A stretch of 64,000 bases of DNA, from NCBI GenBank assembly GCA_001800315.1, contig MGVE01000020.1, positions 1 to 64,000 on the forward strand, written 5' to 3'. The DNA comes from Elusimicrobia bacterium RIFOXYA2_FULL_47_53. Its GTDB lineage: Bacteria > Elusimicrobiota > Endomicrobiia > Endomicrobiales > XYA2-FULL-47-53. The notes under the pieces are model-generated. The model saw only the letters and a program-made list of their open reading frames with translations, was not told the DNA's origin and did no database searches. Both the position numbers and the translations under genes were made by a program. Below, piece by piece: positions 26,383-47,739 of the stretch (position 1 is its first letter; every line of letters begins with the position of its first letter).

Positions 26383-26640
26383 AGCCGTCATACTGATCTC
26401 CCGAAGGGAGAGAAGTATCTCTCTTTTTCGTCATTCCGGAATTGTTCTGTCCCACAGCGAAAAATCACCCGTCTTTGGACGGGTGAAGAATGCTTCGCAT
26501 TCGCCTGGGAGGCCGGCTGATTTTATCCAAAGCATTGGGCCGTCACTCCGGGATCCACAAACAAAACAAAAGACTGTATCACAGACTACTATCTCTGGCA
26601 TGACAACACAAATAAGTTTGCAGTTCACTTAAAACTTACA
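26383..26640. repeat. Mixed short palindromic repeats
   Basis: The stretch contains a GATCTCCCGAAGGGAGAG motif, a CATTCCGGAATTGTTCTGTCC fragment of the GTCATTCC repeat type, and a TCACCCGTC/GACGGGTGA hairpin at 26466-26487. I see no credible gene in it. Confidence 0.5.
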
Positions 26641-26650
26641 ACTTAAAACT

Positions 26651-26801
26651 TGAGTCAGTTGAAAAAGTGTTTCTGGCCGTCTTTGCGAGGAGTGCAACGA
26701 CGCGGCAATCTCGTCGTTCCCGACGGAAAAGCGAGATTGCTTCTCTCCCTTCGGGAGATCGCAATGACAGGGTCTTATTAAGGGTTTTTCAATTGACTCA
26801 A
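26651..26801. repeat. GTCTTTGCGAG...GCAATGAC palindromic repeat F1
   Basis: A 150-nt palindromic element. The outer arms are TGAGTCAGTTGAAAAA and TTTTTCAATTGACTCA (15 of 16 complementary). Inside are GTCTTTGCGAGG...GGCAATCTCGTC and its complement ending TCGCAATGAC, with a CTCCCTTCGGGAG hairpin. A close relative lies at 50333-50440. Confidence 0.7.
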
Positions 26802-44737: not shown

Positions 44738-44766
44738 TTGACAACGCTTTTTAACCTTGTTATAAT
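44738..44766 (+). promoter_or_regulatory. Consensus sigma-70 promoter before the RAYT element
   Basis: TTGACA (44738-44743), 17-nt spacer, TATAAT (44761-44766): a perfect match to the sigma-70 consensus. The -10 box lies inside direct repeat R1. Confidence 0.75.
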
Positions 44767-44822
44767 CCGCTTAGTTGCACACCTATCTCAATGGGCGGGG
44801 TAGCGGGGGAAATACATATCTT
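44757..44822 (+). repeat. Direct repeat R1
   Basis: It starts TTGTTATAATCCGCTTAGTT and contains GCACACCTATCTCAATGGGC, then a GGGGTAGCGGGG stretch and ACATATCT. R2 (45555-45620) matches it over about 65 nt with about six differences. R3 (45978-46015) matches the middle part. Confidence 0.8.
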
Positions 44823-44837
44823 TAGGCGAACATAAGT

Positions 44838-44854
44838 GGGGACGGTTCTATTTA
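44838..44854 (+). repeat. Left inverted repeat of the RAYT element
   Basis: GGGGACGGTTCTATTTA is the exact reverse complement of 45531-45547 at the other end of the transposase gene. Confidence 0.85.
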
Positions 44855-44874
44855 ATTAAAATTATGGGGGGGAT

Positions 44875-45537
44875 ATGCCGCGTGGCGCAAGGATATTGCC
44901 TGAAATCGGAGTGCTTCACATTATAACTCGCGGGAATAACAGGCAGAAAGTATTTAAAGATGATGCTGATTATAAAAAGTATCTTTGGTTGTTAGGGCTT
45001 TATAAGGAAGAACATGGTTTCAAATTGTACCACTATTGCCTTATGAGCAATCATGTCCACCTTATTATTGAGACCTCTCGGAAAACCAATCTTCCGAAAA
45101 TGATGAAGCAGATTAATTTATCTTACATGCATCACTTCAGAAAGAAATATAAATACTTCGGGCATTTTTGGCAAGATAGATATAAAAGTTTATTGATCGA
45201 AAAAGACAGCTATCTTCTATCATGTGGAAAATATATTGAACTTAACCCTGTGCGTGCAAGGATTGTTTCGAGGCCCGATGAATACCGGTGGCACAGCTAT
45301 AATGTATATTCCGGAATGGGAGAAGATAAACTAATTGCTTTTGATCCGGTATACGAGAGCTTGGGAAAGACGCAAAATGAACGAGCTGAAAAATACAAAG
45401 AATTGACTTGTGAGAATATAAATTTAAATAGCCGTTTCATAGGTAGCGAATCGTTTGTAAAAGATCAGGAAGAAAAGTTTGGTGTAAGGAATATTGGGGT
45501 CAGGAAAGGAAGACCATCCAAAGTTAAAAATAAATAG
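44875..45537 (+). CDS. REP-associated tyrosine transposase (Y1/HUH family)
   Basis: The 220-residue protein is a Y1-type HUH single-strand endonuclease related to IS200/IS605 TnpA, of the RAYT (DUF1568) group. The metal-binding HXH pair is H60 and H62 in SNHVHLII. The catalytic tyrosine is Tyr120 in KYIELNPVRARIV. The N-terminal RGARILPEIGVLHIITRGNN is the usual start of the group. The basic C-terminal tail (VRKGRPSKVKNK) may bind DNA. A run of G (GGGGGGG) before the ATG acts as ribosome binding site. Base composition is more AT-rich than the core genes, consistent with recent transfer. Confidence 0.92.
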   Translation: MPRGARILPEIGVLHIITRGNNRQKVFKDDADYKKYLWLLGLYKEEHGFKLYHYCLMSNHVHLIIETSRKTNLPKMMKQINLSYMHHFRKKYKYFGHFWQDRYKSLLIEKDSYLLSCGKYIELNPVRARIVSRPDEYRWHSYNVYSGMGEDKLIAFDPVYESLGKTQNERAEKYKELTCENINLNSRFIGSESFVKDQEEKFGVRNIGVRKGRPSKVKNK

Positions 45538-45547
45538 AACCGTCCCC
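45531..45547 (-). repeat. Right inverted repeat of the RAYT element
   Basis: TAAATAGAACCGTCCCC contains the transposase stop codon (TAG at 45535-45537). It is the exact reverse complement of the left repeat at 44838-44854. Confidence 0.85.
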
Positions 45548-45554
45548 TTTAATA

Positions 45555-45620
45555 TTGTTATAATCCGCTTAGTTGCACACCTATCTCAATCGGCGGGGAG
45601 CGGGGAAAACACATATCTAT
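45555..45620 (+). repeat. Direct repeat R2
   Basis: A second copy of R1, keeping the TATAAT box (45559-45564). The -35 box TTGACA is replaced by the transposon end, so the promoter in this copy is broken. Confidence 0.8.
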
Positions 45621-45977: not shown

Positions 45978-46015
45978 GCGCACACCTATCTCAATGGGCG
46001 GGTAAGCGGGGAAAA
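45978..46015 (+). repeat. Direct repeat R3 (partial)
   Basis: CGCACACCTATCTCAATGGG, then CGGGTAAGCGGGGAAAA, repeats the middle of R1 and R2. The TATAAT part is missing. Confidence 0.7.
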
Positions 46016-46086
46016 TAATTATAATTAAGTTAATAAATTCTGCATATTGCATGTTACAATAAACAAAAAAACTGTTCTAATAGTTT

Positions 46087-46113
46087 GTTAAGTTAGTGAA
46101 GCCTGACACCATT
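46087..46113 (+). repeat. Left 27-bp inverted repeat of the two-gene element
   Basis: The 27 bases contain TTAGTGAAGCCTGACACC and are the exact reverse complement of 47644-47670. No mismatch is seen. Confidence 0.85.
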
Positions 46114-46298
46114 TACAAGCGCACTCCCTCATACCGCATTAAAGTCGCTCAAAGCAAATTCCTGAACGCTTTGGCATGAAGATGCACTAATCATTAAAAC
46201 ATTTATTAGATTTGCTATGTCCATTTTAGTTGCCAAACCTTCCAACTAGGCGGTGAATTAAAATACAAAAAATAAAGTTACTAAAGTAAAAATAAATG

Positions 46299-46327
46299 TT
46301 GACAAAACGATACATTTATAATATGAT
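46299..46327 (+). promoter_or_regulatory. Promoter of the HTH/HEPN-like gene pair
   Basis: TTGACA (46299-46304), 17-nt spacer, TATGAT (46322-46327). Two palindromes overlap and follow the -10 box. Confidence 0.8.
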
Positions 46328-46357
46328 AAATGTATCATTTATAACTATAATGATACA
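46309..46357. promoter_or_regulatory. Tandem palindromic operators
   Basis: Palindrome 1 (46309-46336): GATACATTTAT, 6 nt, ATAAATGTATC. Palindrome 2 (46331-46357): TGTATCATT, 9 nt, AATGATACA. They share a half-site and cover the -10 box and start region, a layout expected for tight autorepression. Confidence 0.75.
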
Positions 46358-46383
46358 CTAAATGAATTAAAGGAGAATGTGTT

Positions 46384-46881
46384 ATGCAATTTGAACCAGA
46401 GTTGAATGCCATGAACGACATTTTGAAGGCTTTAAAGGAACTTGAGCCCGAGGCTCAAGAAAGAGTTGTTAATTGGGTGACTGGAAAACTTAATTTGCCT
46501 AAGGCCTCGGCTATTTTAAATAAGGGGCAAAAACCGAAAGAAAATATTATTGAAGACAATATTAACAATAATACCCTTGCGGAGGTATTTGCAGCAACAA
46601 ATCCAAATAGTGACTCGGACAAAGTGCTTGTGGTTGCCACTTATATTCAAAATAGGGATAGTAAAGATGAGTTAACAGGGCGTGAAATCAATAAAGAGTT
46701 GGTACATCTTGGACATGGGGTAGGGAATATTACAAATGCAATATCAGGATTAATGAATAGAACTCCAAAACTTATGATACAAACACGTAAAGATGGCAGT
46801 ACTAAACAAGCACAGAAAAAGTACAAAGTTACAATAGAGGGTTTAAATGCTTATAAAAAGATGTTCGGGAAGGCTGAATAA
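46384..46881 (+). CDS. Predicted winged-helix protein, first gene of a two-gene cassette
   Basis: I cannot name a family. The 165-residue protein has an N-terminal helical segment (LEPEAQERVVNWVTGKL, residues 20-36), a polar linker at 45-75, and a C-terminal segment that looks like a winged helix. That segment spans DKVLVVATYIQNRDSKDEL at 79-97, REINKELVHLG at 100-110, and TPKLMIQTRKDGSTKQAQKK at 127-146 with a basic wing. This makes it a likely DNA-binding autorepressor of the operators just upstream. AAGGAGA serves as ribosome binding site. The gene is AT-rich compared with the core. An antitoxin or sensor role is inference. Confidence 0.7.
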   Translation: MQFEPELNAMNDILKALKELEPEAQERVVNWVTGKLNLPKASAILNKGQKPKENIIEDNINNNTLAEVFAATNPNSDSDKVLVVATYIQNRDSKDELTGREINKELVHLGHGVGNITNAISGLMNRTPKLMIQTRKDGSTKQAQKKYKVTIEGLNAYKKMFGKAE

Positions 46882-46914
46882 TAAGATTAAAAACAATATA
46901 TTTTGGAGTAAATT

Positions 46915-47610
46915 ATGATTCCGATGGAAAAATTAAGTGACTATGTTCATAAGAGTTCTCTATCTCAATTAGATAAATTACTTCTTATTTTAGCTGTTGA
47001 GCATACAAAACCAAAGCAGATTGGCGAGATAAGGAACATTGGGCGAAACGCAGGGCTTGTTAAAATATACAAGTGGAATATTCCCGATGCCCTTACAAAA
47101 TCACGAGACAAAGCGATCCACCTGCCTAAGGGTTGGATCATCAAAGGTCCAGGAAAAGACAGAGTACGAAATATCATAAATGTTTTGGAAATTCCCAAGA
47201 CAGAGGAAACCCTTATTGGTACATATGTAGATAAAAAAAGAATTGTCGAATTAAAAAATATTAAATGCCATTACGATTTGACTAGATTAGTTCAAATGCT
47301 TTACGAGTTAGATGATGCTTCTAGTCGTAATAATTATATTTCAGTTATTATGTTAGTAAGAGCAATATTAGATCACGTGCCTCCATTATTTGGCAATAAA
47401 AATTTCCTTGAATTTGCAAATAACTATAATGGTGGAAGGAGCTTTAAGGAATCGATGGTAAGGTTGCAAGAGTCATGTCGTAAAATTGCAGACAGTTATC
47501 TGCATGGACAGATTAGAACGAAGGAAAGTTTGCCTAATAGAATACAAATAAATTTTTCAAATGATATTGATTTGCTATTATCAGAAATAATAAGAATAAA
47601 TAGTCAATAG
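46915..47610 (+). CDS. Predicted HTH plus HEPN-like protein, second gene of the cassette
   Basis: No named family is recognised. In the 231-residue protein, residues 15-85 resemble a winged helix (LDKLLLILAVEHTKPKQIGE, then NIPDALTKSRDKAIHLPKGW). Residues 125-231 are helical and carry an RX4H motif, R149-AILD-H154, in MLVRAILDHVPPLFG. They also carry a second conserved-looking stretch, SCRKIADSYLHGQIR (R189 and H197). RX4-6H is the catalytic motif of HEPN ribonucleases, so an RNase toxin or abortive-infection effector is a reasonable guess. A GGAG ribosome binding site stands before the ATG; the gene follows its partner after 33 nt. Confidence 0.65.
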   Translation: MIPMEKLSDYVHKSSLSQLDKLLLILAVEHTKPKQIGEIRNIGRNAGLVKIYKWNIPDALTKSRDKAIHLPKGWIIKGPGKDRVRNIINVLEIPKTEETLIGTYVDKKRIVELKNIKCHYDLTRLVQMLYELDDASSRNNYISVIMLVRAILDHVPPLFGNKNFLEFANNYNGGRSFKESMVRLQESCRKIADSYLHGQIRTKESLPNRIQINFSNDIDLLLSEIIRINSQ

Positions 47611-47643
47611 GTGCAAAACAATGGAGGCGCTTCTATTTGTAGC

Positions 47644-47670
47644 AATGGTGTCAGGCTTCACTAACTTAAC
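47644..47670 (-). repeat. Right 27-bp inverted repeat of the two-gene element
   Basis: Exact reverse complement of 46087-46113; contains GGTGTCAGGCTTCACTAA. It lies 34 nt after the second gene. Confidence 0.85.
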
Positions 47671-47739
47671 TAACTTATTGGAACTAACTGAACTACAATG
47701 CAACACAATGGAATTTGAAGCCGAAGTTAAGGAGTTAAA

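Follow-up and report, generated by a model that had tools for sequence, protein, structure and literature searches.

A putative winged-helix and HEPN-domain gene pair between inverted repeats in an Elusimicrobia genome

The cassette and its promoter

The DNA analysed here, referred to as the window, is a stretch of 64,000 nucleotides from Elusimicrobia bacterium RIFOXYA2_FULL_47_53. It includes two AT-rich genes on the + strand, gene 1 at 46384-46881 (165 aa) and gene 2 at 46915-47610 (231 aa), which are 33 nt apart and lie between inverted repeats, and we refer to the repeats and what they enclose as the cassette. A preliminary description made from the sequence had drawn attention to this arrangement, and the list of open reading frames confirms both the two same-strand genes with their spacing and the lack of any transposase gene between the repeats. 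The perfect 27-bp inverted repeats that it reported at 46087-46113 and 47644-47670 are indeed present and are the cores of longer arms. They extend to 32 bp if one mismatch is allowed, and in a self-alignment with gaps allowed the left and right arms cover about 46074-46118 and 47637-47684 respectively, and are about 90% identical over some 45 bp.

The whole window was dinucleotide-shuffled 20 times, and no shuffle contained a perfect inverted repeat above 17 bp within 5 kb, the longest in each being 13-17 bp. The 27-bp repeat of the cassette is thus not due to chance. Pairs of dispersed repeats longer than that of the cassette are found elsewhere in the window, for example at 26734/30224, and inverted repeats as such are thus not unusual in this genome. 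An intergenic dispersed repeat with the core GATCTCCCGAAGGGAGAGAAG is present at 26395, 26734 and 30224, and its inverted pairs exceed those of the cassette in length.

The GC content of the cassette is 33.6%, which is 15 points below the 48.6% of the window, and the cassette looks foreign and horizontally acquired. It is surrounded by ordinary genes, for a transposase, a small membrane-like ORF and a CxxCxxCC protein, with no recognised defence island. An Rfam scan of 44.0-48.4 kb gave no match, and there is no integrase among the ORFs of 42-52 kb. There are three near-copies of TTGTTATAATCCGCTTAGTTGCACACCTATCTCAATGGGCGGGG.AGCGGGG, at 44762-44815, 45557-45612 and 45980-46014, the third being short, and each is just 5' of an insert, these being in turn a REP-associated-type Y1 transposase (RAYT) gene, a 107-aa membrane-like ORF and the HEPN cassette. 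The near-copies may be either promoter or leader copies, or cassette borders.

The single promoter of the preliminary description is also borne out, as there is one good sigma-70-like site ahead of gene 1, at 46299-46327 on the + strand (TTGACA-17-TATGAT, with 11/12 consensus matches), which is predicted to serve both genes. Promoter-like sites are no more numerous in the region than in shuffles, and the main argument for this site is its location upstream of gene 1. The -10 box is covered by a palindrome, GATACATTTAT-N6-ATAAATGTATC at 46309-46336, that is a candidate operator, and an overlapping second palindrome, TGTATCATT-N9-AATGATACA at 46331-46357, is a candidate extra half-site. A palindrome arm of 11 bp turns up in 1/500 and 9/2000 shuffles, and the location of the first palindrome over the -10 box suggests autoregulation of the gene pair.

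The two proteins and their conserved residues

Gene 1 is predicted to encode a DNA-binding regulator or antitoxin with a helical N-terminus followed by a winged-helix domain (aa ~65-161). The AlphaFold2 model, based on a three-sequence alignment, has pLDDT mostly 70-85 over aa 61-160 and the order helix-helix-helix-strand-strand-helix, and the structural matches listed are winged-helix or winged-helix-bearing proteins, including MarR, PadR and ORC, with Z 8.2-9.3. Model and matches thus support the earlier suggestion of a winged-helix protein. Searches of Pfam, NCBIfam and PADLOC gave no meaningful match for either gene, the best for gene 1 in PADLOC-DB 2.0 being a weak match to Csm2 (E=0.016). 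This and the matches of the window genes to Tox-MPTase3 and Ntox50 are weak and look like chance. PDB sequence searches with gene 1 and with the HEPN profile gave nothing usable, and nothing meaningful came from a search of the viral structure library.

Gene 2 is predicted to encode an RNase effector or toxin, with a wHTH-like N-terminal domain (aa 1-~95) and a HEPN domain (aa ~103-231). The N-terminal half was modelled poorly, with pLDDT 42-66. The C-terminal domain was modelled with pLDDT mostly above 90, and its best 14 structural matches are all to HEPN proteins, with Z 7.5-9.1, rmsd 2.9-4.1 and 99-114 residues aligned. HepT and AMPylated HEPN toxins are among the best matches. The first match outside the HEPN proteins is to hemerythrin with Z 7.1, which is a modest margin for a helical bundle, and Foldseek with the same domain gave nothing significant, the best E value being 1.0. 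The model and the 14 matches thus give a case for a HEPN fold that is good but not beyond doubt, as had been proposed, and a model lacking that fold, which the preliminary description named as evidence against itself, was not obtained. No Pfam family matches gene 2 at E<=1, DUF4145 (PF13643) included, and the DUF4145 model found no match among ten sampled gene 2 relatives either. There is also no match for gene 2 to any model in PADLOC-DB 2.0, and matches for relatives of the pair were likewise weak.

With regard to the catalytic residues, the preliminary description proposed R149-X4-H154, in the RAILDH sequence (codons at 47359-47376), as the HEPN motif. In an alignment of 26 distinct sequences of gene 2 HEPN-domain relatives R149, I151, H154, P157, F164 and H197 are invariant, so the loss of R149 and H154 among homologues, which had been named as grounds for doubt, is not what we find. 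D153, P156, R189, D193 and L196 are nearly invariant, with R189 kept in 24 of the 26 (K in the other 2) and D193 also in 24. However, while R149-X4-H154 is present and fully conserved, it is probably not the canonical HEPN catalytic motif. The HEPN survey of Anantharaman et al. 2013 (PMC3710099) places the motif (Rx4-6H) where helix 3 ends, and in the gene 2 model helix 2 is 141-154 and helix 3, the long helix before the last, is 175-196. R189-X7-H197, in RKIADSYLH (codons at 47479-47505), is thus at the place expected of the motif and is predicted to be the catalytic one, although its spacing is one residue longer than that published. The DUF4145 domains in L059 and L026, two of the loci discussed below, also have R-X7-H. 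In an hhalign comparison the R149/H154 helix aligned with the DUF4145 helix MMRRLLEIL and not with the RELGNLSAH motif, with a probability of 30% and over one helix only, and on this and its position in helix 2 we have set R149-X4-H154 aside as the HEPN motif and treat it as a signature of the family. In some HEPN families a different histidine, located N-terminal to the motif, may be used instead (PMC3710099), so R149/H154 may join R189/H197 in a composite active site in this RAIxDHxPPxF family of HEPN domains.

Relatives and conservation of the pair

In tblastn searches with gene 2 the C-terminal half alone was matched in 13 plasmids, and scans of 84,980 species genomes and of viral contigs gave 28 loci, which include representatives of Spirochaetes, Chloroflexi, Bacteroidetes/Ignavibacteria, Acidobacteria, Cyanobacteria, Pseudomonadota and Streptomyces. 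We conclude that the C-terminal domain (aa ~103-231) is a module that occurs behind many different N-termini. The pair itself is rare and scattered. Gene 2 has one further match in 198 sampled genomes of the window's own phylum, and searches from gene 2 gave one clear further pair in 398 sampled genomes of Pseudomonadota. Gene 1 has no further match in 340 sampled genomes and single matches elsewhere, with nothing in plasmids or phages by tblastn and no relatives found in viral contigs. Three matches were treated as chance, that in G510 (E=1.2e-4) being short and partial, and those in G1341 and G1366 (E about 0.008 and 0.007) being in open frames of 783 and 463 aa.

The wHTH-HEPN relatives for which there is upstream sequence each adjoin a small gene. 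The two genome loci with the winged-helix-like N-terminal layout of gene 2 are L020 from a Spirochaete and L022 from Woeseia, and in both the small gene is directly upstream, with a 14-nt overlap in L020 and a 4-nt gap in L022. In L059 from Pseudomonadota there is also a small upstream gene, with a gap of about 24 nt, and the C-terminus of the larger protein is a DUF4145 HEPN domain (Pfam E=4.5e-7). L014, from the phylum of the window, has an N-terminus 41% identical to that of gene 2 joined to another HEPN-like domain (REYRNLVHP), and the contig ends upstream of it.

Searches from gene 1 gave four credible homologues, in G400, G1033, G1051 and G1355, and three of the four have a HEPN-like/winged-helix partner. 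The G400 homologue has 43% identity to gene 1 and is divergent from its partner gene, for which the N-terminus matches that of gene 2 (28% identity) and the C-terminus is again of a different HEPN-like type, with RNGCGH. The G1033 homologue has a 26-nt overlap with a gene encoding an IRNNRNVGH helical domain and a C-terminal winged-helix-like domain. In G1051 the gene 1-like ORF, which has an in-frame stop, precedes a HEPN-like gene with an IRNNR.VGH/IRNNRGVGH-type motif and a C-terminal wHTH, and for the G1355 homologue no HEPN neighbour was found. The HEPN-like label for the domains in G400, G1033, G1051 and L014 is based on R...H motifs and a helical pattern judged by eye, and not on a library match. 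In a Chloroflexota version (L094:3209-5275) three genes follow one another, the first being an additional winged-helix-like ORF, the second a gene 1-like ORF interrupted by a single in-frame stop, and the third a HEPN-like plus winged-helix gene.

A profile made from four gene 1 homologues and run against all ORFs of the fetched loci found the upstream gene of L022 (E=7e-5), with that of L059 next (E=0.096), and did not find that of L020. For L020 and L059 we therefore claim a shared layout and not homology, and across the pairs "same layout" would be a firmer statement than "same family". The spacing of the two genes is 33 nt in the window, -14 in L020, +4 in L022, about +24 in L059 and -26 in G1033, with the genes divergent in G400. 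Homologous pairs, as predicted in the preliminary description, were thus found independently from both genes, and the situation in which homologues never occur as a pair does not apply. What is constant is the winged-helix layout, while the type of HEPN domain is swapped. The promoter palindrome does not share this constancy: there is none as strong as that in the window upstream of gene 1 in L022, G1033 or G1355, and those of L020, G400 and G1051 are weak, so we do not claim a conserved operator.

Function, transport and comparison with known systems

We suggest, with a probability of roughly two in three, that the pair is a modular and horizontally acquired two-gene growth-arrest module of the HEPN-RNase toxin or abortive-infection type. 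In gene 2 a HEPN ribonuclease would be the effector, with a winged helix attached to it. The separate winged-helix protein of gene 1, most likely acting jointly with gene 2, would bind the operator at their common promoter and repress transcription, and would also keep the HEPN domain inactive in an antitoxin or sensor role. If phage infection, the loss of gene 1 or some other event upset this complex, the HEPN dimer would become active and use R189/H197 to cleave RNA, with R149/H154 perhaps nearby, and growth would stop. We infer the RNase activity and toxicity of gene 2, and the formation of a complex, autoregulation and any role in phage defence are likewise our inferences. The toxin-antitoxin and abortive-infection versions of this proposal cannot be told apart, but the pair does look like a little-studied family of one or the other kind.

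One sub-case is that the pair is a stand-alone anti-phage Abi system and not an addiction-type toxin-antitoxin, in which the two winged helices sense phage DNA or a phage protein, the HEPN domain is active solely upon infection and gene 2 is non-toxic alone. We rate this at a little under even odds, a confidence that overlaps with that for the growth-arrest module as a whole. A DNA-binding fold in both proteins would suit it, as would the rare and scattered distribution, and for several HEPN families a role as Abi effectors is established (PMC3710099). There are also HEPN relatives with unrelated N-termini that adjoin defence genes: that on a Methylobacter plasmid (L016) is beside GajA and GajB of Gabija (E 1.9e-230 and 2.2e-234) and a PDC-S19 protein, that in L026 is beside a Type I specificity gene and a PD-T7-4-like protein, and that in L027 is beside a Type IIG enzyme-methylase and a PDC-S72 Fic protein. 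The three serve as examples and give no frequency, and in all of them the N-terminus is other than winged-helix. Neighbouring defence genes are thus a feature of these relatives of the HEPN domain and not of the wHTH pairs, and the pair in the window is outside any recognised defence island. The promoter palindrome fits toxin-antitoxin autoregulation equally well, and the orphan gene 1 of G1355 fits an antitoxin.

A different question is how the cassette came to be where it is, and here the proposal concerns transport and not function. The cassette could be an element that is bounded by its inverted repeats and moved in trans, be it as a transposase-less element, through the neighbouring RAYT, or because REP-like repeats recombine. 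From the composition and borders mobility is plausible, the repeats being near-perfect and inverted and the GC content so much lower, but movement in trans by any of these routes seems to us rather doubtful. The exact repeat core has no second site in the 2.4-Mb genome, the rest of the cassette is also single-copy, and no target-site duplication was seen, as the flanks did not match at any border that was tried. Of the transposase-less mobile element proposed in the preliminary description the terminal inverted repeats thus stand, but the single copy and lack of a target-site duplication speak against it.

Degenerate repeats of the same family do bound an unrelated pair of genes, for an MBL-fold hydrolase and a cupin, at C20:121992-123443 (L013:1995-3436), which speaks for transport in trans. 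However these repeats (GGTGCCTGGCTTCACTAACTTCACTAA) are in direct and not inverted orientation. No transposase was recognised among the genes bounded by degenerate repeats; there is another degenerate copy at C3:16678, and a search of viral contigs with the pattern of the cassette repeat found none. The RAYT gene (44875-45537) is 0.5 kb upstream and outside the cassette repeats, and its nearness and its having flanking repeats of its own also favour transport in trans, but those repeats, inverted GGGGACGGTTCTATTT copies at 44838-45547, are unrelated to those of the cassette. Related copies are found elsewhere in the genome, at C3:16636-16988, around a gene fragment, and at C8:117465 and C14:80870. 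A further point for transport in trans comes from the Spirochaete MAG, in which a tyrosine integrase with an integron-type SAM-like domain is followed by the same-strand pair and further small genes (L020:181-5140). The spacers between these genes are palindromic with similar ACGTTRTA ends, and are attC-like as judged by eye without formal scoring, so the segment looks like an integron array.

The remaining alternative to a growth-arrest module, a two-protein transcriptional regulator with no toxin, in which the HEPN-like bundle serves for dimerisation or ligand binding as in MtlR or the C-terminal HEPN of nucleotidyltransferases, would account for the winged helices in both genes and the non-canonical R-X7-H spacing, and HEPN domains with lost activity are known (PMC3710099), but we consider it improbable, as the invariance of R149, H154 and H197 and near-invariance of R189 and D193 over 26 sequences are more in keeping with an active site than with a passive bundle, and the swapped-in HEPN types retain R...H motifs of their own (RELGNLSAH, RNGCGH and IRNNRNVGH).

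Returning to the growth-arrest module, one may go further and, as a speculation, see in the pairs an undescribed two-gene family of RNA-targeting immune or toxin systems that crosses phyla, in which the winged-helix pair is a control platform and the HEPN domain is swappable (at least four HEPN or HEPN-like types), carried in compact cassettes that are bounded by inverted repeats in the window and located behind an integron-type integrase in the Spirochaete, and with R149/H154 and R189/H197 forming the composite active site of the RAIxDHxPPxF domain. If the reading as a growth-arrest module is right it adds a HEPN family with a strong invariant R-A-I-x-D-H-x-P-P signature that was missed by the library models used, and it would be the constant winged-helix half, rather than the fast-evolving nuclease, that could reveal unannotated toxin or defence modules. 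The pair would also offer residues and an operator sequence open to direct testing. Text searches of the open literature, which leave most subscription papers and preprints outside their coverage, gave no description of a winged-helix plus wHTH-HEPN pair, but fusions of HEPN and winged-helix domains as such are already known (EC042_2821; PMC3710099).

With regard to known systems, the pair resembles Type II toxin-antitoxin operons in having a small regulator first and the effector second, a short gap or overlap, and a palindrome at the promoter. It differs in that the effector also carries a domain of DNA-binding type and that the genes in G400 are divergent, and the toxicity of gene 2 and its neutralisation by gene 1 are putative. 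MntA-HepT (HEPN-MNT) likewise consists of two small genes with a HEPN-fold effector, and the C-terminus of gene 2 best matches HepT-type toxins. However gene 1 is modelled as a winged helix and not a minimal nucleotidyltransferase antitoxin, and gene 2 has its own N-terminal winged-helix-like domain, and R-X7-H in place of the shorter motif of HepT.

EC042_2821/DUF3644 (wHTH-HEPN-REase) and AbiJ are similar in that HEPN is fused to a winged helix or has swappable N-termini (PMC3710099), but gene 2 is of another HEPN family and lacks a REase or zinc ribbon, and the recurrent partner here is a second, separate winged-helix gene. DUF4145 (PF13643), which includes the PD-T7-4-like protein in L026, differs from gene 2 in that there is no match at E<=1 and gene 2 has its own RAIxDHxPPxF signature. 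The R-X7-H spacing is nevertheless shared by the DUF4145 domains in L059 and L026, helix 2 aligns, and in L059 a DUF4145 domain takes the place of the HEPN domain in the same pair layout.
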